The notes beneath the pieces were generated by a model. It was not told the origin of the DNA, did no database searches, and saw only the letters and a program-made list of their open reading frames with translations. DNA of 64,000 nucleotides from Nannochloropsis oceanica (Eukaryota; Sar; Eustigmatophyceae; Eustigmatales; Monodopsidaceae), in contig CP038115.1 in the NCBI GenBank assembly GCA_004519485.1, positions 620,001 to 684,000 of the forward strand, read 5' to 3'. Below, piece by piece: positions 7,586 through 64,000 of the stretch. Every line of letters begins with the position of its first letter. Positions within the stretch are counted from its first letter, which is position 1. The position numbers and the translations under genes are program-made.

Positions 7586-10500
7586 ATGCGCTTTCACTGC
7601 TTCACGCTCCTCCTTGGCACCGTGGCTCTGGTCACTGCCACCAATACGCCCAACCTTCGCAAGGTGAGTCAGTAGGAACGGGGCTGGCGGGTGGGACATG
7701 AGCTGGGCAGGATCGGGAGGGGAGACGCACATGGCAAATATCGAGGAATGAACAGCCCAGCTGTGTCTAAAAAAATCCATCATCCCCCTCCTCACACCCA
7801 CTTTTTGAAAGGTACAAGAGACTTCCGAAGTCACTGTTGCGGTGACTGACAATGTGGACGTGGTAAGTGTTCCGCAAAGGTGTTGTCCCTGTATGTCTTT
7901 TTCTCTTTCGTATCTTTCTTGAGAGCCCCGAAGATCCCGTTACACGTCCAAAAGCTGGCTAGTACCGTGCATTACCTCTCTGAGCCCGTTTTTGCCCCGT
8001 ATCATTCTCCCTCCAGTTGGCTGATAACACCGGAAACCTCGAGGACAATCATAAGCATGACCGCATGGTACGTCATTCGCCCCCTCCAACAATTCCTTCC
8101 TCCCCCCCCTCCCATCCCTTCCACCCTGAGTACCAGAATTGCAATAGCATCGTATTCCGAGTCAATCTCCTTCCCTTCTTCTCTGCAGCCGCTCCTACTA
8201 CACAGGCAACTATGTCTGATCTCCTCCCTACCTCCCTCCCTCCCTCCCTTTCTATCTCCCTCCCTCCCTTCCTCCCTTCACAGCTTCACGAGATCCCCGC
8301 GACCGCCCCGATTACGACAACAACGGAGAATACTCACGATAAGCAAGCGCACCGCGGGCGCCGGGTAAGTCATGTTGAATGCCTACCTTCTTGCGTTGTA
8401 TTCTCAATTCTTGTTCGTTCATCCCCTCTCACCTTGTGGGGAAAGGGGAGAGGTCGCCTCCACATGCCTTGCCGTGTGCCAAGGAAGAGAAAAGCATCTT
8501 CTCTCTCCATCACTGATCTCTCTGTCTCTCTCTATATATATATTTATATTCTTCCCTTCTTCCCTCTCTCTTTTTCTCTCTTTCTCTCTCTCCCTCTTTC
8601 TCCGTCTCTCTTTCTCTCTCTCTGTGTCGTATTCTCCCCTTTCCTCTCACATTCCCTAGAGGCGTTTCTCACTTCATCACCTCCCCACTCCTTCCTTCCC
8701 TCCTCCTTCCCTCCTTACCTCCGTGCAGCTGACCTGGGGTTGGGATAAAGGCTGGTGGAACAATTGGGGGTGGGGATGGGGCAAAGGCGGATGGGGCAAC
8801 GGGTGGAACAACGGGTGGAACAATGGGTGGAACAACGGGTGGAACAACGGATGGAACAACGGGTGGAACAACGGCTGGGGCAAAGGCGGTTGGGGTAACG
8901 GATGGAATAACGGGTGGAACAACTGGGGGTGGAAAGATTGGGGGTGGAAGAAGGGCGCGTGGAACAATTGGGGGTGGGGCTGGGGCAACAACAACAACAA
9001 CGGAGTAAGTGCATTTCTTCTCCTGAGGATGATCAAGTCTCCCTCCTTCCTCCTTCTTCTCCTGACGAGACCTCCCTGTGTGCCTTTATGGGGTGGCATG
9101 GTCGGAGACAGGCGTTAGGGGAAAGACAAAGATGATTGAAGCGGTTGTATGAGCTCACCCCTCCTTCCCTTCCTTCCCTCCTCCCATCCTCTCTCCCTCG
9201 CTCCCCTTACCTAGTGGAACAACAACTGGTGGAACAACCAATGGAACGACAACGTAAGCCTCGTCATGACTGCTGTACCCTCCCCCTCTTCCCCTCTCCC
9301 CCTTTCCCTCTTTTCTCCCTTCCTCCCTCCCTTCCTGTCTCGATTCTCCCCTCACACCCACTCAATTTGTCCCCTTCCTCCCTCCCTCCTCCTCCTCCCT
9401 CAGTGGAACCAGCAGCAGTGGAACATGCACCAGCAGCAGTGGCAACAACAGAGCCAGTGGCAGAGGAATCAGTGGAACAACCAGCAGTGGAACCAGTGGA
9501 ATCAATGGAACCCGAACAATCAGGTAAGTCTAAGCACGACCCTAATTTAATCCTCACAAGGGGATTTATCTTTCTCTCCCTCCCTTCTTCCTGGCTCCTT
9601 TTCTCGCCCTGGGTTATCATTTCTCGCGTCATTTCACCTCGCTTCCCTCCCTCCCTCCCTCCCTCCCTCCCTCCCTCCTCTCAGTGGAACAACCAGCGGT
9701 GGAACCAGTGGATTCAGATGAATCCGATGAATCAGGTGCGATTTCTTTTCCGCCCTCGTTGTTCGATCCTTTCCATTCTCTCTGCTCCCTCCACAGTTTC
9801 TCATCTTGCTCCCTCCCTCCCTCCCCTCCTCACTCTCTCCTACCTACCTTTCCCTCCCCCAGCTTCCTCAATTTAACGCGAACAACCGGAACTGGAACGC
9901 TCAGCAGTGGGGGCAGTGGAACAACCAATATCCCAACTACCAGGTGAGTCTGAATCCTCGTGCATCCCGGGGCTCTTCCTTCCTGCCCCCTACCTATCTC
10001 TCCTGCTCTCTTCTAACCCCCTCTCTCCCTCGCCCTCCTTCCTCCTCACAGGTGCCCTTCTTCAACCAGTGGAACAACGGACAGGTAAGTCTACCCCTGA
10101 GGTCGGACCCTAATGACTGTATCTCGCCCCCCCCCCCTTTTTTTCTTTTTCATCTTCTCACTCTTTGTAACTCCCGTACCGTATACTCCTCCTTCCTTCC
10201 CTCTCCCTCTCTCCCTCTTTCTCTCTCTCCCTCTCTCCCTCTTTCTCTCTCTCCCTCTCTCCCTCTCTCTTTCTCTCCCTCACTCTCTCTCTTTCATCAT
10301 CATCTTTCTCTCTTTCATCATCGTCTCTCGTGTTTCTGCCATGTTTCTTATCCCTCTCTCACTGTCTTCTCTGGGACCGCTCACTCACCTCCTCCCTCCC
10401 ACGATGTTTCTCCGCCTTAGATGAATGCGAACCAGCAGTGGACAAACACCAATAACCAAGTAAGTAGCTCTTTCTATTTTAATTTGATCAAATTGTCGTT

Positions 10501-10827
10501 TCTTCCATTCCTCCATCCTCTGCATCTGTGTGTGTGCCTAGTGCCCCTCTCTTTCCTCCTTTCTCATTCATATCCCTCCCCTCCCTCCCTCCCTCCTCCT
10601 CATCTAGTGGAACCCGAACTTCCCCAACAACCAGTGGAAAGCCACTGATCCCGGCAACCAGCGCAAGGTGAGGCCCCACTCCTCCCTCACTCCCTCCCTC
10701 TTTCCCTCCCTCCCTCCAGCCTACATCCACCTGTAACTTACCTTACCCCTCCTCTTTCCCTCCCTCTTTTTCTCCCACCCGCCCTCAGCTCACCGCCGAC
10801 GCCGCGGAGGAGCAGCCCGAGAAGTAA
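7586..10827 (+). CDS. Secreted Trp/Asn/Gln-rich repeat protein, 13 phase-0 exons
   Basis: Exons 7586-7663, 7812-7862, 8017-8067, 8284-8364, 8729-9004, 9215-9253, 9404-9523, 9685-9735, 9863-9943, 10052-10084, 10421-10459, 10608-10667, 10789-10827. Every exon is a multiple of three, every intron is phase 0, and the total is 332 residues plus stop. Exon 1 is a signal peptide (about 18-20 residues, cut near VTA). Exons 2-4 are acidic and Thr-rich, ending in a basic HRGRR. Exon 5 has 92 residues, about 26 of them Trp, built of WNNG, WGWG and GKGGW units. Exons 6-12 are short modules, several starting with W-N and ending in Q, rich in W, N and Q. The C-terminus is acidic. No enzyme motif and no recognised family. 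A surface, wall or adhesive role through aromatic stacking, and prion-like behaviour of the N/Q part, are inferences only. Confidence 0.85.
8798..8877 (+). repeat. 12-bp coding tandem repeat (WNNG units)
   Basis: About six copies of a 12-bp unit (TGGAACAACGGG with small changes) inside exon 5 of the W/N-rich gene, each encoding Trp-Asn-Asn-Gly. Third-base differences among copies are mostly silent, which suggests the peptide is kept. Confidence 0.9.
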
Positions 10828-22367: not shown

Positions 22368-22454
22368 CGCATCTCAGGAGGAGTCGAACCCCTGTGCCTC
22401 TCGGCACCACGTGATTTGAAGTCACGCACCCCCACCGGGGGGCATCAGTGATGC
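22368..22454 (-). tRNA. tRNA-Sec (anticodon TCA), copy 1
   Basis: Read on the minus strand: perfect 5-bp anticodon stem CGTGA/TCACG around loop CTTCAAA (anticodon TCA); a long perfect variable stem GTGCC/GGCAC; a G/C D-stem CCCCC/GGGGG with a short loop; T-loop TTCGACT on a 4-bp stem; and a 9-nt acceptor strand pair GCATCACTG/CTGAGATGC with two mismatches. The 9+4 shape, long variable arm and TCA anticodon are specific to eukaryotic selenocysteine tRNA, so this lineage should make selenoproteins. No clear T-run terminator is visible just after the 3' end. Confidence 0.9.
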
Positions 22455-22541: not shown

Positions 22542-22628
22542 CGCATCTCAGGAGGAGTCGAACCCCTGTGCCTCTCGGCACCACGTGATTTGAAGTCACG
22601 CACCCCCACCGGGGGGCATCAGTGATGC
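22542..22628 (-). tRNA. tRNA-Sec (anticodon TCA), copy 2
   Basis: Identical in sequence to copy 1 and shifted by exactly 174 bp. Short flanks on both sides (from about 5 bases past the 3' end to about 10 bases before the 5' end) are also identical, while the spacer between is (CCCT)n plus CTGCTGC-rich sequence. Tandem duplication of a gene that is single-copy in most eukaryotes; collapse or duplication in assembly is an alternative. Confidence 0.9.
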
Positions 22629-23490: not shown

Positions 23491-23661
23491 ATACTTACCT
23501 GACCGGGGTCTGGCGGTGGTCACGAGGGCCGCTAGCCTTCGGGGGAGCAGGCCATTGCACTCGCCTCGGCGTCTGGTGCTGTAAGCCCGAAAGGACGGGG
23601 CTCCGCTCCGATCCTACGGTATAATTTTTCGACTGGGGCGATGCGCTTGCGCTCGCCCCCA
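23491..23661 (+). ncRNA. U1 spliceosomal snRNA
   Basis: The 5' end ATACTTACCTG is the canonical sequence that pairs with 5' splice sites. Stem-loop I carries a GGTCACGAGGG loop like the U1-70K site; stem-loop II contains ATTGCACTC (23554-23562), the exact U1A-binding loop; ATAATTTTTCG at 23621-23631 is the Sm site; and a G/C-rich terminal hairpin GGGGCGATGCGCTTGCGCTCGCCCC closes the molecule. Length about 171 nt is normal. Order and spacing of all elements fit U1. It lies 0.9 kb from the tRNA-Sec pair, in a protein-free interval. Confidence 0.95.
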
Positions 23662-51879: not shown

Positions 51880-53061
51880 AGAATGTAAGCTAGACGAGAC
51901 AGCACCATCAGGTCCCCCCAGACACACATACACCTCTCATCATTGCATCGCTGTGAGTCCTGTACTAGTCACCTGTAACTTGTACTGGTCTGTATGGTGG
52001 GAACATGCATGATTTTGGCCCATGCTACTGTTAAGTACATTTGTGCGCCTTTTCCTCGCTTTATTTCCCCACCCACATTTACTCTAAATATATCGTGCTC
52101 GATCGTCAGACACAGGCACTCAATGATTTTCCTAAGTGCAGTGCAGCTTCGTGTTGCATTACGTATTTCATCCCGGGGCATATTGATCTTCCACGCTCGC
52201 TCCCCACACAAGGAACGCTAAGTACGTGGAGGACACATAAAAGCCTCGCTTGAAAGACGTACACAGATCTTCCGATGACAAGAGTGTGGCGGCATATTAA
52301 GGAAGTAAGGAAGGCGCCAAGTACAGTCGATGGCGGCCTGCATACAGGGAGGAAAGTCGTCGAAGAGCAATGCCGCCAAGGTAGAAAAGCGCCCAGCAGG
52401 GAGGACAAGTAAAGAAGGAAGGTTGTCAATATCAACAGACATACCGGCGCAGTTCCATAAGTACGACAGTAGCGATCAAGTTTGACAGGGAGGTTTAAAT
52501 AAGTAATACGCAAATTTACTTGCAGGTCACATTTCTTGTACTTTTTGATGTGACGTAAGCAGGATACACCTTAGCATAAATTGGCTTAAAGTTCTCCGCT
52601 TCGGCAGACTTAAACAAGTCATGACGAGTGCCAATGGCATAAACTCGTGGACGAGTAGACCGTCTCCTACTGCGAGATGGACAAGTGTAACTGTCTCTCA
52701 TCCTCTCCCACCATCTCTAAAGCTGCTCTCTACTCTTCATTTTGTCCCTCCTTCCAGCTGCAATTGCAGTTCTGCGGTATTCTCTAACTTCGCCACGCCG
52801 CTCAGCACGCGCTTACTTTCCTTATAAAATTATGCACGGTGTTTACTAGCTGCATCTCCCTCTTCCATCAAAAACTACTAAGTGCGAAGGCACTGTGAGC
52901 GCTTGACAAACGTCGGAAGAAAATGACTGACGTACATCAACTATATATGCTTCACCATGCCAGACTTTTCTTCTATCCGAGGCCACCTCCATTCCATAAG
53001 CCTAGCTAAATAGATATAGATATATATCTCTCTTTTATATTTTTTTCTTCCGGATGAGGTC
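51880..53061. other. Intergenic with weak unknown candidate
   Basis: 5' region of the MINPP-type gene and 3' side of the beta-helix gene, including a TATATAT-rich stretch at 53008-53042. Apart from the candidate at 52218-52701 nothing was read. Confidence 0.45.
52218..52701 (-). CDS. Weak candidate, small spliced gene of unknown function
   Basis: On the minus strand an open segment (52701-52516) reads RPRVYAIGTRHDLFKSAEAE and FKPIYAKVYPAYV with non-repetitive, protein-like composition. Downstream, a GTATGT donor near 52444 and a TGCAG acceptor near 52340 could join LDRYCRTYGTAP to AAIDCTWRLPYFLN in phase, ending at 52218. No family recognised and no start context chosen. It may equally be chance or an old fragment. 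Confidence 0.22.
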
Positions 53062-54517
53062 TTAAACATACATGTGTGTGCCGTACAACTTGCGCTCCTG
53101 GCCCGAGTGTCGCAACTCATAACTCTGCGAATACCCGACCTGCCCATTCTCGGCCTTGGCCTGCTCAACGGGAGGGGATGGAACGTGAGTGAAATGCCGA
53201 GTGACCAACTACCACATGCCACTTGCGCGTGCATGCATGAGTCCCTTGTCGTACCTGGAAGAAGTAGTCGGCAGGGATCATTTCTTCGACGAAAACCATG
53301 TCAACCGTGGCGTGGCCCTCCTCGTCCGTCATGACGCTCTGCAGCTTATGCACCACGTGCTCGGCCGTCTCATGTTCCTACAGGACAGGAGAGGGGGAAA
53401 GGAGTTGGTTGAGCATCATTTTAGCCAAAATGAGAGAGAAAGGACAGGGGACGAAGCAGGGGAAGACGAGTCTTAGTCAGATACGTTACACCAGCCACCG
53501 AAACTGCCCCATATTCTGTCTCCCCGTCCCTTCCTGCCCTCCCTCTCCTCCCTTCCCTCCCTATTTTCTCTTGTATACATACCTTGAAGCGGTAGAGGTC
53601 AAGTTGAAGGGTGGTCGACGCAGGAAAGTTCTCGAGGTACATGTGGTAGGTCTTGCCGTACTTCGCGTGGGTCACGGGCACGGCCGTTTGCTCTGGGTCC
53701 ACCAGCACGGCTGAATGGCTGCCCAAAGACCGGTGCCGGGCCGTTAGGTGCAACTGGAGAGAAGGAGAAAAGGGAGACAATATGGCGCAACGCACGCCAG
53801 GCGAGAGGGCCGAGTGAATAGAACGTAGAGAAAACAAAGGTATTGACTTTGGAAGATGAAACGTACCGGAGAATTGTAGGCGGGGACAAAAAGCTCGTTC
53901 GTGCTGATAATGTCTACATGGCCCAGCTCGATGCCCTGGGTGTGAGGAAGGGAGAGGAAAGAGGGCGTGGATGAGATGGCGGCATGGAAAGAGAGACGTA
54001 TATTATAATGTAATCCTGCCCGCGAAGAAGGACAACTCATAACTAGGACCTCTTTTCCTCTTTTTGTTCAACTCCCCTTGCTTCTCCATGCACGTAGACG
54101 TACCGACATGGTGGCGTAGGCCGCCTTGATGTTCTGCGCCAAGCGGCCCTCCCGCGCCTCATCCGCGCTCCCGTCCAAGCCTGCCCGCACAATGTCCATG
54201 GCCTCCTTGGTCGTCGTCATCAGCACCATCTACATTCAAAAAGAGGAAAAGAGGGAGTGAAAGACGAGAGAAGAAGAGAAAAGGGACGATGAGTTGCTGA
54301 TGATGAATATTGAAACACGACGACAGAGGCGCCATACATGCTCACTTCTCTTTCACATTCCTGCTCGCATTCATCTTTGCGTTCCCCGTTCCATCCTTTC
54401 GCCTTTCCTTCCGTCTTCTCGCACATACCTCGACGGTGTGTGTCTTGCTGAAGTCCTGGTCCTCATACAGGCTGCGGGCCCGGGCCTGCTGATGTTCGCC
54501 GAACTGGGGGTCAAGCT
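53053..54517 (-). repeat. Segmental duplication, left copy
   Basis: Matches 62539-64000 essentially base for base, introns included (offset 9486, then 9483 after a 3-bp intron indel at about 54082/63567). The left breakpoint is abrupt, about 10 bp past the beta-helix stop codon. Confidence 0.95.
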
Positions 54518-57500
54518 CGCCGTGGTACAGGTTCACCTGCGTGGTAGGTGGAAACAAAGGAAAGGAAGGAGTGACGAAGCGGATCAGAAAGTCGTGCAGC
54601 GAGCCAAACACAAGACGTCGGCTTTAGATTGGACAGAGCAAAATACGCCACCCCAAAATCACTCTATATACTTCTGTACTCACAATAATAGAGTCTTTGT
54701 CCTCGCTGGCGCCCTGCAGCTCGGCCACGGCCGCCACCACCGCCTCTTGCAGCTCGGGTAGGTCCAGGGCATCCACGTCAGCCTCGGAGGTGGTAGTGAT
54801 GGTGGCCATCATAATGTGATGGTCGTCGTACTTGAGCGCCTCGGTGTCCCCAGGAATGCTGGCGCTGTAGGATGGAAGGTAAGGGGAGTAGGTTGAGATG
54901 GATGCGTGACTGCCTGTGTTGGTGGCCATGGTCACAGACTGTCCTTAATCTTCATGCAGGCACATCTCTTTTTCTTTCTCACACTTGTTCTCCGTTGCGT
55001 TGCCTTTCTTTGCCTCTACTTACTTGCTCGACATTCTCTGGTTGTTCGGCATGATCAAGTTGGCGCAGTCGTCCTCCACCTGGCACCCGCCGAGTCCGCC
55101 ACCTTGCGCGCTGTGCGTGTATTGGGGTGTATATGTGGGGGTTGGGTTGAATGTGAGCTCGGTACTTACTGGGCCAAGGTGAGTGTGACTGCATTTCGTC
55201 GTCCTTCTCTTTTTTGGGGGATCCATTGTACGTACCCCGGCACATTGCACATCCCGCAGTAGCCGTCCGTCTTGGATGCGATTTCGAAAGCGGCTACCTC
55301 CGTCTCCCTCTCAATGGCCGGTAGGCGGCCAGGGAGATTCATGCTACCTATCTGCGCCTGCATCCTGTCAAACGTCTGGGACAAGGACAAAGGGGGACAC
55401 AGGGTGAAAGATGAAAAGTGAGCAAGTGGTACAATATTCATTCGCGTCTCGCCTATGGTCCACCTTCCCGAATAGCGGCTGCTTTCGCTCTTCGACCTAC
55501 CCTCGCCCACTTACATCCAACCACTGAGGGGGCACAAGGTTCTCGAACCTCTTGCGGTCGAAGGTGGTGCGCGAGACATTGGCGGCTAGCACAGAGATGT
55601 CCTGTTAGAGAGAAGAAACCAACAAACGAGGAAGAACAGATCAGAGCAAGAACAAGACATACCTCTCTTCTCGAGTACGCTCTAAGTATGACCGACCAAC
55701 ACATCCAGCCAGACGATTCTTTCCCTCCCTTGCTTCCAACGTCTTGACGTACCATGGGGTTCATTGCCGAGGCCTTCAGATTGCGGTCGCCACTGGTGCT
55801 GTTTTCGGCCTCCTCGGCGTCAAGGTGATCGCGGTGCCATAGGTTGGTGGCGTGGCGGCGGACCTGCGTGGGCAGATGCCGAGTGTGACCACCCTGTTCG
55901 AAGAAAGCGCGGAGCTCACGCTGTTTTGCCGAAAGCTGGCGCTTGGACGATGCTCGTGACAGGCGAGGGCCCGTGCGTTCGGGGGCCATGAGGGTACGGG
56001 GCGCCTTAGGACCGGGCGAGGTACGAGCCTTGGACGCGGCGACGGCCGCAGGACCTCGGCGCTTGTCGGAAAGGGCGCGAGCTCGGCCTTCCTCGCCACC
56101 AGAACTGGCACCGTCGTTTCCTCCCTCGTAGCCGAAGGCCAGGTTGACTGTCAAGGGCGGGGTATTAAGGACAGATAGTGAGTAGTATCCAATCAGACTT
56201 GTTTGTTCCCCTTCCGCTTGTCCAGCCTACCATCGCTAGCACTTACTAAGCTTCATGCAGCCCTGCACGGGGGCTACGAATGTGGGCAATGTGTAGAGAG
56301 AACGGTCCGTGGTAAGCGCGCGGGCACGACCTTCTCCTCCCTCGGCACCGGAGGAAAGAGAACCTGTAGCACCGCTTTCGGATTCACAAGTGCCCTGATG
56401 AGGGCCGAAGGGGAAGCGACGCGTATAAATAGGAGACGGAAAGAAAGGGGGATGAGTGTGTGAGTTATTTATCCTAATCCTGATGCATCCCATTTCAATC
56501 CATATAAGTGTAGTCCTCATCTCGACCCTTACTTTCCCCTCTCTGGTCTTTTACCTACCATGACAAAGAATTCGGTCACGCGCGAGACGCGGGGCCCGTA
56601 GAAGTCGATGATAGGCGTGGCCCACACGACCATGGCCCCAGCACCCACGTAGAGTACCTCCCCCAATGTCCGTGAAAACTCAAATACATTGGCATCAATA
56701 ACCGGTGAGGCGATCCAAGAAATGAAGCCAGCTACGATGGAAGGAAAGAGAAAGAGATAAGAGGATAATCTTAAAGCAGGGACCCTAACCGTACCGAAGA
56801 GATAACATCTAATCTGTCTCTTCCTCTTCTCCCTATCTCCTTACCATCATTGGCGATGTACTCGCCCAACATGAAGACGGCGGCGATGGCGACAAATTCC
56901 ACGAGAACCACACCTGTAAATGACCCGTACCCAGCGCCAATATAGAGACTGCCGCCCTGTGAGAGAAGACCCAAAAAGTGGAAAGGCACATGCGTATGAG
57001 AGACCAAGGTAATGGATCAGAGCACCTTTAAGACTGTTTTCCTTCCTTCCTCCCCTTTTTCTTCTCCTCATATGTTTCCGTACCTGACCGTTCTCACTTG
57101 CTTGGGACAGATATTCGGCACTGGGGTTGCCTGTTCCGATGTAGACGCCCGATCCCAGGAAAGTTGTTTCACCAAGCACAGCCTACGGGAAAAGAAGATC
57201 CGGTAAGTCAAGGATACGGGCATCAGCGTAAGAGGTTGAAGCAACAATATAGGGAAAGCGAAAGAGAATGAGGTAAGTGGACCAGGAATACATAAGAAAA
57301 CGTCACCAGCACGTACAAACATAAGAAGGCCGTTATACTCATTGAATGGACAGCCAGTTTGGATGAGTACGCCCGCTCCGACCGTGTACTCGAAACCCAC
57401 GCCAAATGTCGCACCCAGTGCGAAGGCTTCCATGTTATTCACACCCGTCAAGATCATAGCTCCTGGAAAGGGGAAGGGGTGAAGGAAAGGTGAATGATGG

Positions 57501-59711
57501 TGAAGAGGGAACGGAAGATGGAAGAGAATACGAGTACGGGTCTCGATTTCCGATGAGGCGGTAAGGTCAGGCATCCCTTCTCATCCCTTTGTTACCTCCC
57601 AAGACGTTCAGCTCGCCCGTGCCCGTGAAGAGGACGGCAGCCGAGTACTCGCTGATAACAGAGACCGTCATGGCCATCACACCGCCTGTCGGTACAAGGA
57701 ACAGGAAAAGAACCGAGGCGCGGTAAAAAGGAGTAATTAAGATATAAGATCATACAAAGAACCTGCGCAGACTTGCTTCCCATTCTTCAAAGCCCCTGCA
57801 TAATTCAAAATACCCGCTGAAGCGTGTATACCTGCCACGAGGAAGCCCTGTGCCATGCAGTTTTCATTGACGACGCCATTGTTCTCCATAAATGTGTTGA
57901 AAGTGTACGTAGAGAGACCCGCGAACTGAGCAACAAACTGTGAGGGTTGAGTCAAAGTGATACGTCAGTACAAAGTGAGTCATGGTCATACCTGGATGAC
58001 TCTAGGTACATTTCTGTTTCTTTGCACCCTTCCTCTTCTGCACTTACCAATCCTACGCCATTCTCCACCCCCAGTAACGTGTTCTCCAAAAATGTACAGC
58101 CCGTAAAGGTCAGGATCCCGCCCAGCTGCAGGACGTTGGCGCCAATGAAAAGGGTGTTGCCGAAAGCATACAACACGGTCAAGTCAAAGAACATGCAGCC
58201 GATGAAGTCTGGTATGGAGGGATATTTAAGCGGGCGGTTAAGAGACAAGAAGGTTTTGACAGTATGCTCACACGGGCCTTAAAAAGACATGATATAAAGT
58301 ATGGATCCATTCACACAGTCTTTCCATCGTGCGTCACACACATGGGAGCCTCTTTCCTCTTCACATACCAATCTGTCCGCCCACCGCGAAGACGTGACCG
58401 CCATAGATGCGGTAGACCTCACGACCCAGGGTACGCCGAATATTGCGCTCAATGCCCGACTCAAGATCTGGGTCATCGATAAAGAGAACACCCGTAAATT
58501 TTGCGCCCAAGGCATCCGAATCAATCATGACACTGCCACCCCGAATCTCGTTCACCTTGCCCGTGGGTGCAGTGTTCGCGAAGCGCTCAAAAGGCAAGGG
58601 ATCCCGAAAAATACCATCGCTCATCAGCTGTTGCACGAATCGCAGGTCCAGGAAGCCACCAGCGGTGACATGCCACGTGCGCACAGACTCTTCACCGTCA
58701 AGAACGGGCAGAATGCTGGGGTTTCCCATAACCACCACGCGGCGTCGGACAAAGATCTCCTCCTCAATCTCGAAGATCTTACCGGGGGCAAGGTAAACAA
58801 TGCTGCATGCTTTGTTCTACGAGTCGAGAATGATTGAAAGGATCGAGGAAAAGAAAAAGGTCGATGAACGAGATAGAATTGGACAACCCCCCAGAACAAA
58901 TCATACCTCAACGGCGTCCTTGAGCTCGTCAAAGTCGGCGGCGAAACAGGAATCCTCGGGCAAGCCTTCCAAGCCACCGCCCGCCACTGCCAACCCCATC
59001 TGGACATCTACCAAAAAATCAGGCGGAGTGCCGGAGGTTTTGGCCTCGGCGGCCTCGTCCGATACTTTGTAAGCTGCCTCTCCGGCCTTATTCGTGACGA
59101 AAGTCAACCCAGGACCTGCCGCAGTACCTGTCGGCAGTGTGGAGTCGCTCGCCTGTGCGTGTGGTGTGATGTTTCAGCGAAAAAAACGCCAGCAAGACAT
59201 GCATCCTAGATACTGGAATATGAACATTGATTCTTGGAACGTACCTGCTGCGTAGTCGTCATGGACGTTTCTGGCACCTTGATGTCGGCCTGTGTTAGTT
59301 TTTATAAAGAGATCGTGGTCGGTTGCAAAAACCTTTGCAGCTCGGTTTCTTTCTCCGACACGTACCGGCGCTTCACTCGTTGTCGTCGCAGTGTCAAACA
59401 TCAAAGAGAAAGGGACAGTTGTGTCACCCATCGGTGTCGTCTGTGCTCCGGACCTCCCGGCTGACTTGTTTTGGTCCTGTGTGCGTGTGTGCGTGTAGGT
59501 GTAAAGGCGAGGAGATGAGGCGGGCATGCAACATGTGGCTTATACGTACCCACGTATCCTCAGCTCCTTTCTGCTTGCTTACCTTGCCCCCCGAAACGAT
59601 GGCTATAGTGGCCACCAGGCCCGCAACGAGCACGACGGCTAAGGCTGCGAGGCCTACACGCCTCCTCCGAGTCTGGCCGTCTCCGGGACCGCTCGCATGT
59701 GCTGCGGCCAT
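53062..59711 (-). CDS. Large membrane-anchored right-handed beta-helix protein, copy A
   Basis: About 25 small exons. Sure ones (minus): 59711-59583, 59476-59366, 59289-59245, 59152-58907, 58816-58369, 58208-58048, 57937-57832; the last ends at a TAA at 53062-53064. A short basic N-terminus (TRRRRVG) and one hydrophobic segment (about 20-40) make a type II anchor. After a Thr-rich stalk, a pectin-lyase-like beta-helix begins (DFDELKDAVE, IVYLAPGKIFEI, RRRVVVMGNPSI, WHVTAGGFLDLRFVQ) and continues over many coils of the type LQLGGILTFTGCTFLEN, one coil or so per exon. A Ser/Gly/Arg/Ala linker follows, with two GRARAL repeats (near 56300 and 56060), then a Cys-bearing part (GYCGMC) and a mixed C-terminal domain. 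Probably an extracellular or wall polysaccharide-binding protein; catalysis is not shown. Introns lack (CCCT)n. Confidence 0.8.
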
Positions 59712-60470
59712 GCTGGATGCACTTTGAAGCTGTAAGCTGTCTATAGGATATTTTTCACGTGTATGGAGTGCAAATTGAGAGTTGGTGCCTGTGGTGTGGT
59801 TGGTATGGCGGCATGCAATGGGCCTCTCATGCCATGCGTTCAACGCCTCGTTGAGCGAACGGCCCGATGGCCAACGACCGCAACCTGCTCCGAATTCCCG
59901 CGGTTTTAGGGCCGTGCTTTGAGGAGATGAGGACTTTTTGAGAGGACAAGAAGGATTCTTTTGTCAGCGAGGGGATGCAAATTGCCAATTGCAAAGAGCC
60001 CCCGGAAATGCAAAGAGAGGGCACGCGCCCCGACGAGAGAGAGGTGAGGCTGCTACCTGCCAAATCACTGACTGGCCCATTGCCGACGTCTTCAAGCAAA
60101 ACATGGTCCGGTCCATAAGCACATCTAGGTTTGCCCCTGGACATCGAGCAAATGTGCATGTGGAAGGACACAGATGTGTTGTGTTCTTCTTTGGATGGTG
60201 TGCGAGGGAGAGAATGAGCAGCGACAAGAGATCTTGGCGCGTGCCTAGGAGACTTCTCTCACAGCGCATGGAAACAGCAACGGTCGTGTGCGACCTGAAG
60301 CGTTCTTCAGCTACTTATAAGACGCCATTGCTTACCATGCGACCTTACCTTGGGCATGATACATGTACTTGGTGAAAGAAAGAGATATAAATAAGCATTC
60401 CATGTATACCCCTCAACCAAAACATGGACATTCTTTATATCCACACCACTGCCAGATCAATCTATAAATC
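59712..60470. promoter_or_regulatory. Shared divergent promoter region
   Basis: 759 bp between the ATG of the beta-helix gene (-) and that of the 256-residue secreted-protein gene (+). No sharp regulatory motif identified. Head-to-head placement of two secretory-pathway genes suggests possible co-expression (inference). Confidence 0.5.
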
Positions 60471-61977
60471 ATGCGAAGGTCAATGGCGACCCGGGGCATC
60501 CTGATGCTCCTGGTGGCTTGCGTGTGCGGCAGCGTCCAAGGCCAGCTTTCGGCGCGTAAGAAGATAGCATCAGGCTCCAGCAAGGCAGGCGTGGCCGAGG
60601 CGTGGGACCAGATGGGGGAGCAGGTCAAGGCCAACGCGGAGGCAGTCAAGGCAGCCATGCCAGGCCGTAAGTAGAACGAAGAAGTGGGAGAAGGTTGAGA
60701 CATTGATGCCTGCACGCGCACACCCATCTACAACATTTTCGTTTCCCCTACACTTTTCCTTTTCTATCGCTCTCTCCAGTCTTGGATCCCGTGGGCTCGA
60801 CGAGCAAGCTGGCCTTTTTCCAGGCCGTGAAGAAGGCTGGCGGCGTGGACGCCATCGAGTTATTCGACACTGTCATCAAGAGCAAGGCCTTTGAGGTAGG
60901 CACAATCTCAATGTGTGTCTCTGTGTATGTGTATGTGTATGTCTACGTGTGTGTGCGTGTAGGGTGTGTGATACTCTCTAATTCCTTGCATTTCTCTCTC
61001 TTACACGTCCCTCACTTTCCCTCCTTCCTTATCTTCTTTCCGCCCTTCTTCCTAACACCAGAAAATCCTGGAGAACGTGGAGGTGCAGCACCGGTTGATG
61101 GAGGAAATTCCCATCCTCGGAGCCATTCCAGGCTTTCTGGAGGTGAAGGGCCGACGCCTCAGCGACGAGGAGGTGCGGTGCAGCGGGAAGGAGGGGAGGG
61201 GGTGAGGGAGGAATTTCGTTGGTTGAGCGTATTTCCTTTACAATCATAATCATCGACCTTGCGCTTTACCACCTCCTCCTCTATATTCAGACCAAGGCCG
61301 GGTTTAGGAAGGGCATGCAAAACATGTGGAACATGATGAAGACTGTGGCCGAACACGCCAAGGTAAGCCTTCCTTCCGCCCTCCCTCCTTCCCTGTCTTT
61401 CCCTTTCTCATCCGCCCTCCTGCTTCCCCTATTTTTGATTCCAGGACCCCACACTCATGAACACAAAGCTGGTGGAACTCTCAAAGTCCGATGACCCTGA
61501 GATTTTGGTAAGGAGACGTGGGAAAAGACGGAAGAGAAGAAGGGCGCTTCCTCTCCATCCACAACCACCGACTACCTCTCTTCAGTCTCTGTCCCTCACG
61601 TATTTCCCTCGCCACCTTTTGTTTTCCCTTATTCTGCTCTTTAGGCGCTATTCAAGGCAGCGGGTGAGAACGACGAGGCCTCGATAATGGAGCTGCAGAA
61701 CATGGTGGCCGCCGACCTTTACCCCGGTACGAGGCAATGAAGGAGAGAGGGAGGGAAGGAGGGATGGAGGGAGGGAGGGACAGCAAAGAAGCGACGCCAA
61801 AGAGTCACGTCACTCACTTTATGCTATTACTCTTATCTATGCATAGGCGTGGACGTGTCTGTCATGCGTGACATCCTGGACGCACAGAGCTTCGACAAGA
61901 TCTTGTCCTTCCCCGAGCTCTCCCGCTTCGTCGACCAGGACCCCTACCTAGCCAAGGTGCTGAGGACGCCCAAGTAA
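60471..61977 (+). CDS. Secreted protein of unknown function, 256 residues
   Basis: Exons 60471-60666, 60780-60895, 61062-61172, 61291-61362, 61445-61507, 61645-61726, 61847-61977; phases close exactly. Signal peptide about 1-25 (GILMLLVACVCGSVQG cut before QLS). The mature part is all-helical in character, with short charged helices (AWDQMGEQVKANAEAVKAA, LENVEVQHRLMEEI, KGMQNMWNMMKTVAEHAK, FPELSRFVDQDPYLAKVL), no Cys in the mature part and no catalytic motif recognised. Two alternative starts (60471 and the ATG five codons on) share the signal peptide. The gene sits between two copies of the beta-helix gene; whether it belongs to the duplicated unit cannot be seen here. An AATAAA follows at 62005. 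Confidence 0.85.
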
Positions 61978-62547
61978 AGGCGTGTAGGCACGAAATAATA
62001 TTTTAATAAAGTATTCAAGAGAGGGAAATGGTAGGTTGAGAAAACTGTGATTTCAAGGAGGGGATGAGGGAGGATAAAGCAAGAGGTAATAGGACAAGAA
62101 GCTATGGCCGTCGACGAAGATGCAAAGTATATTATTGATTGCTTGCCAAAGAGTGAATCTAAGAGAACTCTTTCGGGTGCCCAGATGTCGAACGAAGGAT
62201 AAAGAAGGAATTATGGCATCAAGTGTGCGGCTGCGTCGTTCTACTCTGTATCTTCTTCTTTGTCTTTTTCCCTCGGTGCTCTTTTTTGTTGTGCCTTGTC
62301 TAAAAGTGGGCTGTACGAGTTAACACCGACTCCTGGCCCATAAAGCAAGTACTCAATGCCCCTCGTTTTACTGGCATGTATCTTATTTTCTTTATTTTTT
62401 ACGCTCAATCCATAGAGATGAATGAGCATAATTTCCTCTGACATACCCCATTGTAGCAGATAAAAAGCTGCACGAACATATCTATATTTCGTCGCATCCT
62501 CTTGTTTATGAGCTGCAGCTTTCTCTCGCCCTCCTTTCGATGAGGTC
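61978..62547. other. Convergent intergenic region, no gene seen
   Basis: Between the stop of the + gene and the stop of the second beta-helix copy. Contains the duplication breakpoint at 62539. Confidence 0.5.
62005..62010 (+). terminator. Possible polyadenylation signal AATAAA
   Basis: Canonical hexamer 28 bp after the stop of the 256-residue protein gene, in an AT-rich stretch (TATTTTAATAAAGT). Confidence 0.5.
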
Positions 62548-64000
62548 TTAAACATACATGTGTGTGCCGTACAACTTGCGCTCCTGGCCCGAGTGTCGCA
62601 ACTCATAACTCTGCGAATACCCGACCTGCCCATTCTCGGCCTTGGCCTGCTCAACGGGAGGGGATGGAACGTGAGTGAAATGCCGAGTGACCAACTACCA
62701 CATGCCACTTGCGCGTGCATGCATGAGTCCCTTGTCGTACCTGGAAGAAGTAGTCGGCAGGGATCATTTCTTCGACGAAAACCATGTCAACCGTGGCGTG
62801 GCCCTCCTCGTCCGTCATGACGCTCTGCAGCTTATGCACCACGTGCTCGGCCGTCTCATGTTCCTACAGGACAGGAGAGGGGGAAAGGAGTTGGTTGAGC
62901 ATCATTTTAGCCAAAATGAGAGAGAAAGGACAGGGGACGAAGCAGGGGAAGACGAGTCTTAGTCAGATACGTTACACCAGCCACCGAAACTGCCCCATAT
63001 TCTGTCTCCCCGTCCCTTCCTGCCCTCCCTCTCCTCCCTTCCCTCCCTATTTTCTCTTGTATACATACCTTGAAGCGGTAGAGGTCAAGTTGAAGGGTGG
63101 TCGACGCAGGAAAGTTCTCGAGGTACATGTGGTAGGTCTTGCCGTACTTCGCGTGGGTCACGGGCACGGCCGTTTGCTCTGGGTCCACCAGCACGGCTGA
63201 ATGGCTGCCCAAAGACCGGTGCCGGGCCGTTAGGTGCAACTGGAGAGAAGGAGAAAAGGGAGACAATATGGCGCAACGCACGCCAGGCGAGAGGGCCGAG
63301 TGAATAGAACGTAGAGAAAACAAAGGTATTGACTTTGGAAGATGAAACGTACCGGAGAATTGTAGGCGGGGACAAAAAGCTCGTTCGTGCTGATAATGTC
63401 TACATGGCCCAGCTCGATGCCCTGGGTGTGAGGAAGGGAGAGGAAAGAGGGCGTGGATGAGATGGCGGCATGGAAAGAGAGACGTATATTATAATGTAAT
63501 CCTGCCCGCGAAGAAGGACAACTCATAACTAGGACCTCTTTTCCTCTTTTTGTTCAACTCCCCTTGCTCCATGCACGTAGACGTACCGACATGGTGGCGT
63601 AGGCCGCCTTGATGTTCTGCGCCAAGCGGCCCTCCCGCGCCTCATCCGCGCTCCCGTCCAAGCCTGCCCGCACAATGTCCATGGCCTCCTTGGTCGTCGT
63701 CATCAGCACCATCTACATTCAAAAAGAGGAAAAGAGGGAGTGAAAGACGAGAGAAGAAGAGAAAAGGGACGATGAGTTGCTGATGATGAATATTGAAACA
63801 CGACGACAGAGGCGCCATACATGCTCACTTCTCTTTCACATTCCTGCTCGCATTCATCTTTGCGTTCCCCGTTCCATCCTTTCGCCTTTCCTTCCGTCTT
63901 CTCGCACATACCTCGACGGTGTGTGTCTTGCTGAAGTCCTGGTCCTCATACAGGCTGCGGGCCCGGGCCTGCTGATGTTCGCCGAACTGGGGGTCAAGCT
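62539..64000 (-). repeat. Segmental duplication, right copy (continues beyond window)
   Basis: Same-orientation copy of 53053-54517, giving a tandem period of about 9.5 kb. Near-perfect identity in introns implies a very recent event, gene conversion or an assembly duplicate. Confidence 0.95.
62548..64000 (-). CDS. Beta-helix protein, copy B, 3' part only (runs off window)
   Basis: Carries the same last exons as copy A, including GYSQSYELRHSGQERKLYG at the C-terminus, DMVFVEEMIPADYFFQ, KTYHMYLENFP and GHVDIISTNELFVP, with all splice sites preserved and no coding change seen. The stop is at 62548-62550. The only difference noted is a 3-bp deletion in an intron near 63567. The N-terminal beta-helix half lies beyond 64000, so it is not known whether the copy is complete. 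Confidence 0.85.

Follow-up and report, generated by a model that had tools for sequence, protein, structure and literature searches.

In the available parts of the reports cited here and below, RXL motifs in the precursors of diatom cell wall and biosilica proteins are presumed protease sites (PMC4557024, PMC5525289), and RXL may be a protease motif of general use in diatoms (PMC4557024). Silaffin precursors carry such a motif after the signal sequence (PMC4557024). Cingulins, which are found in insoluble microrings, are made as precursors in which KXXK stretches alternate with repetitive regions rich in Trp and/or Tyr, and in which RXL is also present (PMC4557024); for the Trp-rich cingulin CinW2, 20 K(X)2K motifs are reported (PMC9650480). 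Silicanin-1 (Sin1) of Thalassiosira pseudonana is described as consisting of a signal peptide, an RXL domain with an RRL end and an NQ-rich domain, the protease involved being unknown (PMC5525289).

Judged by analogy of layout, no described proteins were found that come closer than these diatom RXL proteins to a predicted protein of the eustigmatophyte alga Nannochloropsis oceanica. The protein is encoded in a stretch of 64,000 nucleotides (contig CP038115.1, positions 620,001 to 684,000), which is referred to as the window. The gene model at 7586..10827 (+) specifies 332 residues in 13 exons, separated by 12 introns of 108-364 nt that are all of the GT-AG type. All exons (13/13) are multiples of three in length and all introns (12/12) are in phase 0. 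These properties had been claimed in an earlier sequence-only reading of the locus and were re-derived here from the sequence. The exons, with their lengths, are as follows.

7586..7663 (+), 78 nt: exon 1, likely signal peptide and start of the pro-region according to hydropathy, ending in R-K
7812..7862 (+), 51 nt: exon 2, acidic pro-region, net charge -4 from the translation
8017..8067 (+), 51 nt: exon 3, pro-region, ending in R-M before the L of exon 4 (RML, residues 59-61)
8284..8364 (+), 81 nt: exon 4, Thr-rich pro-region, ending in R-R before the L of exon 5 (RRL, residues 86-88)
8729..9004 (+), 276 nt: exon 5, W/N/G domain with WNNG array and WGWG blocks, 28.3% Trp, 8/8 repeat differences synonymous
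9215..9253 (+), 39 nt: exon 6, W/N module
9404..9523 (+), 120 nt: exon 7, W/N/Q module of 40 aa
9685..9735 (+), 51 nt: exon 8, W/N/Q module
9863..9943 (+), 81 nt: exon 9, W/N/Q module
10052..10084 (+), 33 nt: exon 10, W/N/Q module
10421..10459 (+), 39 nt: exon 11, N/Q-rich module
10608..10667 (+), 60 nt: exon 12, last W module, ending in R-K before the L of exon 13 (RKL, residues 319-321)
10789..10827 (+), 39 nt: exon 13, acidic C-terminal tail of 12 residues and stop; the least certain exon

The tryptophan content of about 28% claimed for exon 5 agreed with the count over its 92 aa. Exons 6-12 had been described as short W/N/Q modules; they are indeed rich in these residues (Trp 7.7-30.8%), but exon 7 with its 40 aa is not very short.

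Support for coding came from the repeats in exon 5. The 50 nt at 8774-8823 are found again 99 nt downstream, the two copies having five differences, which all fall on codon position 3 and are all synonymous in the proposed frame (5/5; P = 1.6e-4 at an expected fraction of 0.17). The WNNG array of six units that starts at 8804 has three differences, which are again synonymous in this frame (3/3). The five other frames yielded 0-3/5 synonymous differences for the duplication and 0-2/3 for the array, with the best values obtained in one antisense frame. Antisense coding of exon 5 was considered and found to be less supported, since this best antisense frame reached only 3/5 and 2/3. In a wider comparison at an offset of 12 nt, 2/7 differences were located at codon positions 1 and 2. 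The 13-exon model looks like real coding sequence.

A gene finder that combines codon usage with splice sites rebuilt 12/13 exons exactly in the run that was used. At the 3' end it proposed an extra exon of 13 nt (10720-10732) and continued the gene to 10874; the least certain part of the model is therefore exon 13 with the C-terminal tail. The finder was not independent of this gene, as 5/10 donor seeds (0/8 acceptor seeds) were its own, and the codon table, for which other genes had served as the initial training set, included all of the finder's own predictions after round one. Settings without an intron length cost gave either one run-on gene or three genes, some of up to 13 kb, and were discarded. 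With an intron length cost, 10 or 9 genes were predicted at two penalties, which were picked after the earlier settings had given run-on genes. Counts for the window are from the 9-gene set, which includes two near-identical duplicated tails and some predicted genes that look like fusions of two genes.

Several other features were observed in the window. Two tandem selenocysteine tRNA genes on the minus strand (22368-22454 and 22542-22628) are identical in 87/87 bases, and a U1 spliceosomal RNA gene is located at 23491-23661 (+; 82 bits). The predicted gene at 53062-60658 (-) encodes a protein of 1345 residues with a hydrophobic segment that, by eye, is of the membrane type. The stretches 53053-54517 and 62539-64000 form a tandem duplication that extends up to the window end (99.8% identity over 1465 aligned bases), and a stretch related to the same predicted gene lies past the window end at C18:685356. 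A run of 100 N at 1287-1386 marks an assembly gap or a masked stretch. GC content varies from 47 to 61% per 2 kb, and CCCT/GGGA tetranucleotide arrays are many in the window (171 tandem repeats at a score of at least 50, of which 150 are listed).

The sequence-only reading had treated the uniform phase 0 as special. In the other predicted genes of the window, 52/89 introns are in phase 0, with four of the 52 junctions counted twice because of the duplicated tails (66/117 by hand count at the looser penalty). Under this phase mix, the probability of 12/12 introns in phase 0 is 0.58^12 = 1.6e-3. Among internal exons of these genes, 35/82 are multiples of three, and the median length is 111.5 nt. 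The layout is thus unusual, yet less so than had been held, as phase 0 is already the majority phase of the window introns.

With respect to composition, the whole protein of 332 residues contains 77 Asn, 48 Trp, 38 Gln and 34 Gly. The N-terminus is hydrophobic, with a hydropathy peak of 2.25 over 11 residues and a core at about residues 5-17 as defined by hydropathy only; exon 1 thus probably encodes a signal peptide and the precursor is likely secreted. Residues 19-87 form a Trp-free region of 69 residues (pI 5.9). Then follows a domain of 233 residues rich in W/N/Q/G (residues 88-320; 28.9 kDa, pI 10.4), which is strongly hydrophilic (GRAVY -1.99) and contains 70 Asn, 48 Trp (20.6%), 35 Gln and 31 Gly but neither Cys nor Glu. 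Lys and Arg together account for 12/233 residues (Lys 8), Ser occurs once, Ser and Thr together five times, and the KXXK count is 0. As Ser and Thr make up only 5/233 residues, the absence of N-x-S/T sequons from this domain is uninformative. Digestion with trypsin is predicted to yield long peptides of 33, 51 and 53 residues.

All tryptophans (48/48) are located between RRL (86-88) and RKL (319-321). Three R-x-L motifs, namely RML, RRL and RKL starting at residues 59, 86 and 319, each straddle an exon junction such that L is the first residue encoded by the downstream exon. A fourth R at position -2 is present at the RK/V junction after exon 1. Arg at position -2 of a phase-0 junction was thus found in 4/12 cases here as compared to 0/52 in the other predicted genes of the window (Fisher P 8e-4). 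The RXL count of three exceeds the expected 0.33 (P 0.003), and in 0 of 100,000 shuffles were three RXL motifs placed at exon starts. When exons 1-12 were considered alone, two RXL motifs were left (P 0.035), as RKL rests on the uncertain exon 13. Nine predicted proteins of the window, one of which repeats the tail of another, were tested for RXL excess with uncorrected P values: P was below 0.01 in 2/9 (this protein and that of 53062-60658 (-)) and above 0.1 in the other seven. The protein of 53062-60658 (-) has 14 RXL motifs where 5.9 are expected (P 0.0014) and contains EGRARAL twice.

Database searches had been proposed for this protein, and they yielded no characterised family in Pfam, PDB sequences, IMG/VR or GTDB genomes. 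No Pfam family was matched by the protein, and PDB sequences gave no match. A short pattern fitted 81 stretches in viral contigs (IMG/VR) and gave 97 matches in GTDB species genomes, none of which was confirmed. The sole eukaryotic collection covered was the own genome (29,264,788 bases, 32 contigs), where 12/15 matches corresponded to exons of this gene. The remaining paralogue candidates, two overlapping ones at C16:14447 and one at C7:1098350, were rejected as GATG/GGGA simple repeats. The pattern W-N-x-x-W-N was present at 10 places in the genome, seven of them in this gene; the other three (C2, C3 and C13) were rejected as isolated motifs whose surroundings are not rich in W/N/Q. A WGWG-like DNA pattern with one mismatch allowed was found at 99 places versus 61 for the reversed control; this comparison was uninformative (10/99 loci fetched, seven translated). 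The C-mannosyltransferase Dpy19 had no match in the own genome, a result that is uninformative as the control matched 0/14 genomes. Among the titles and abstract starts that were searched, the protein was not named anywhere. At the search sensitivity used, the gene is an orphan with respect to Pfam, PDB, IMG/VR, GTDB species genomes and the rest of its own genome.

Compared with Sin1 (PMC5525289), the predicted protein shares a long Asn/Gln-rich domain, its Asn/Gln richness (70 Asn and 35 Gln of 233 residues) being as in silicanins. The probable signal peptide and the putative pro-region ending in RRL recall the layout of Sin1; this pro-region has 69 residues, the stretch in Sin1 30 residues (PMC5525289). 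The NQ domain of Sin1 contains 18 Cys (PMC5525289) whereas residues 88-320 contain none. Sin1 has a transmembrane helix as well as a cytosolic tail (PMC5525289); the domain described here has a GRAVY of -1.99 and 20.6% Trp. With cingulins of the Trp-rich type such as CinW2, it has in common a Trp-rich region and RXL motifs (48 Trp; RML, RRL and RKL, the third depending on exon 13), but the KXXK stretches of cingulins are lacking and the spacers consist of Asn, Gln and Gly (PMC4557024). Likewise, Lys is clustered in KXXK motifs in silaffins, whereas the domain has no KXXK, 8/233 Lys and 1/233 Ser (PMC4557024). The protein was not filed with the diatom families because KXXK (cingulins, silaffins) and Cys (silicanins) are absent from its W domain. 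It is an analogue and not a member of cingulins, silaffins and silicanins, from which it is set apart by their published descriptions. Of the claim that no described family has this layout, only a part held: the exact composition is unmatched in the collections searched, but the order of signal peptide, RXL pro-region with an RRL end and N/Q-rich domain is known for silicanin-1, and Trp-rich wall proteins with RXL motifs are known as cingulins. That the protein works like the diatom RXL proteins is a hypothesis drawn from this analogy.

Cingulins are located in silica girdle bands and microrings, while the Nannochloropsis alga is not known to be silicified. A silica-associated protein, i.e. 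a true relative of cingulins or silicanins, would account for RXL motifs next to a Trp-rich or N/Q-rich domain; given a W domain with no KXXK, no Cys and a GRAVY of -1.99, and a genome search for the silicic acid transporter family that came out negative (control matched 1/14 genomes, below the cut-off), such an identity is very improbable. We tentatively favour a pre-pro-protein that would be secreted into the cell wall or extracellular matrix, be processed at RXL motifs and self-associate, a reading that we consider possible though somewhat short of probable. The chain would enter the ER via its N-terminal hydrophobic segment, and the polar pro-region might prevent the sticky domain from becoming insoluble on the way. 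An endoprotease of the RXL type would cut at RRL and perhaps also at RKL; cleavage at both would free the domain of about 233 residues (28.9 kDa). The freed domain may then self-associate through stacked Trp and hydrogen bonds of Asn/Gln and hold on to glucan or algaenan, becoming an insoluble matrix component. In the available part of a report on shed walls of N. oceanica, protein infrared bands were read as beta-sheet (PMC11211512), which makes a wall role of this predicted protein plausible. A red-body gel band near 29 kDa is also described there, close to the 28.9 kDa of the predicted domain; this is a weak lead, since the protein highlighted in that report is a lipocalin. The secreted, aromatic and sticky structural role suggested previously, a predicted one, is still the best reading. 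In its favour are the composition and motif map, the coding evidence, the frequent Arg at position -2 of the junctions, the RXL excess here and in the protein of 53062-60658 (-), the presumed protease sites of diatom precursors and the protein bands of shed walls.

This role has to be weighed against a fast-evolving orphan in which slippage and drift produced the W/N/Q repeats, with no essential role. The single copy, for which no paralogue or outside relative was found, and the tandem DNA repeats in exon 5 fit such an origin, but the 8/8 synonymous repeat differences imply that Trp, Asn and Gly are kept, and all 48 Trp are confined between two RXL motifs; we regard it as unlikely. The pI of 10.4 and the very high Trp content of residues 88-320 might also suggest a precursor from which cleavage frees Trp-rich, cationic peptides with antimicrobial or allelopathic activity. 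Such peptides are typically far poorer in Asn/Gln than this domain, and the low content of Lys/Arg (12/233) as well as the presence of one long domain in place of short released units render this improbable. Little probability is likewise assigned to the proposal that the protein is modular, with variants of different length arising by exon skipping. All exons are symmetric, and the all-phase-0 pattern has a probability of only about 1.6e-3 in the window phase mix, but phase 0 is the window majority (52/89). Further, no similarity was detected among the introns of the gene (low-complexity filter on), so that copying of exons along with introns is not supported. Exon shuffling as the mechanism, which had also been put forward, is not supported on the same grounds of introns lacking detectable shared sequence in a window where introns are mostly in phase 0. 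Introns 3, 6 and 9 are multiples of three in length without in-frame stop, and their retention is possible as far as the sequence tells.

If the favoured reading of a wall or matrix pre-pro-protein is extended, RXL processing of pro-proteins might be an ochrophyte-wide route of wall protein maturation and not an invention of diatom silica formation. Nannochloropsis would use it to deliver a W/N/Q protein that polymerises in a cellulose/algaenan wall, and the exon structure, with R-x/L at the junctions, would record the cleavage modules. We consider this extension doubtful. If true, it would connect the proteins of the Nannochloropsis wall, a fraction about which little is known, with the logic by which diatom silica proteins are processed from precursors, and would suggest that this logic is older than silica. 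The protein would also be a natural material protein made of Trp, Asn and Gln and a model for the extracellular assembly of aromatic low-complexity domains.
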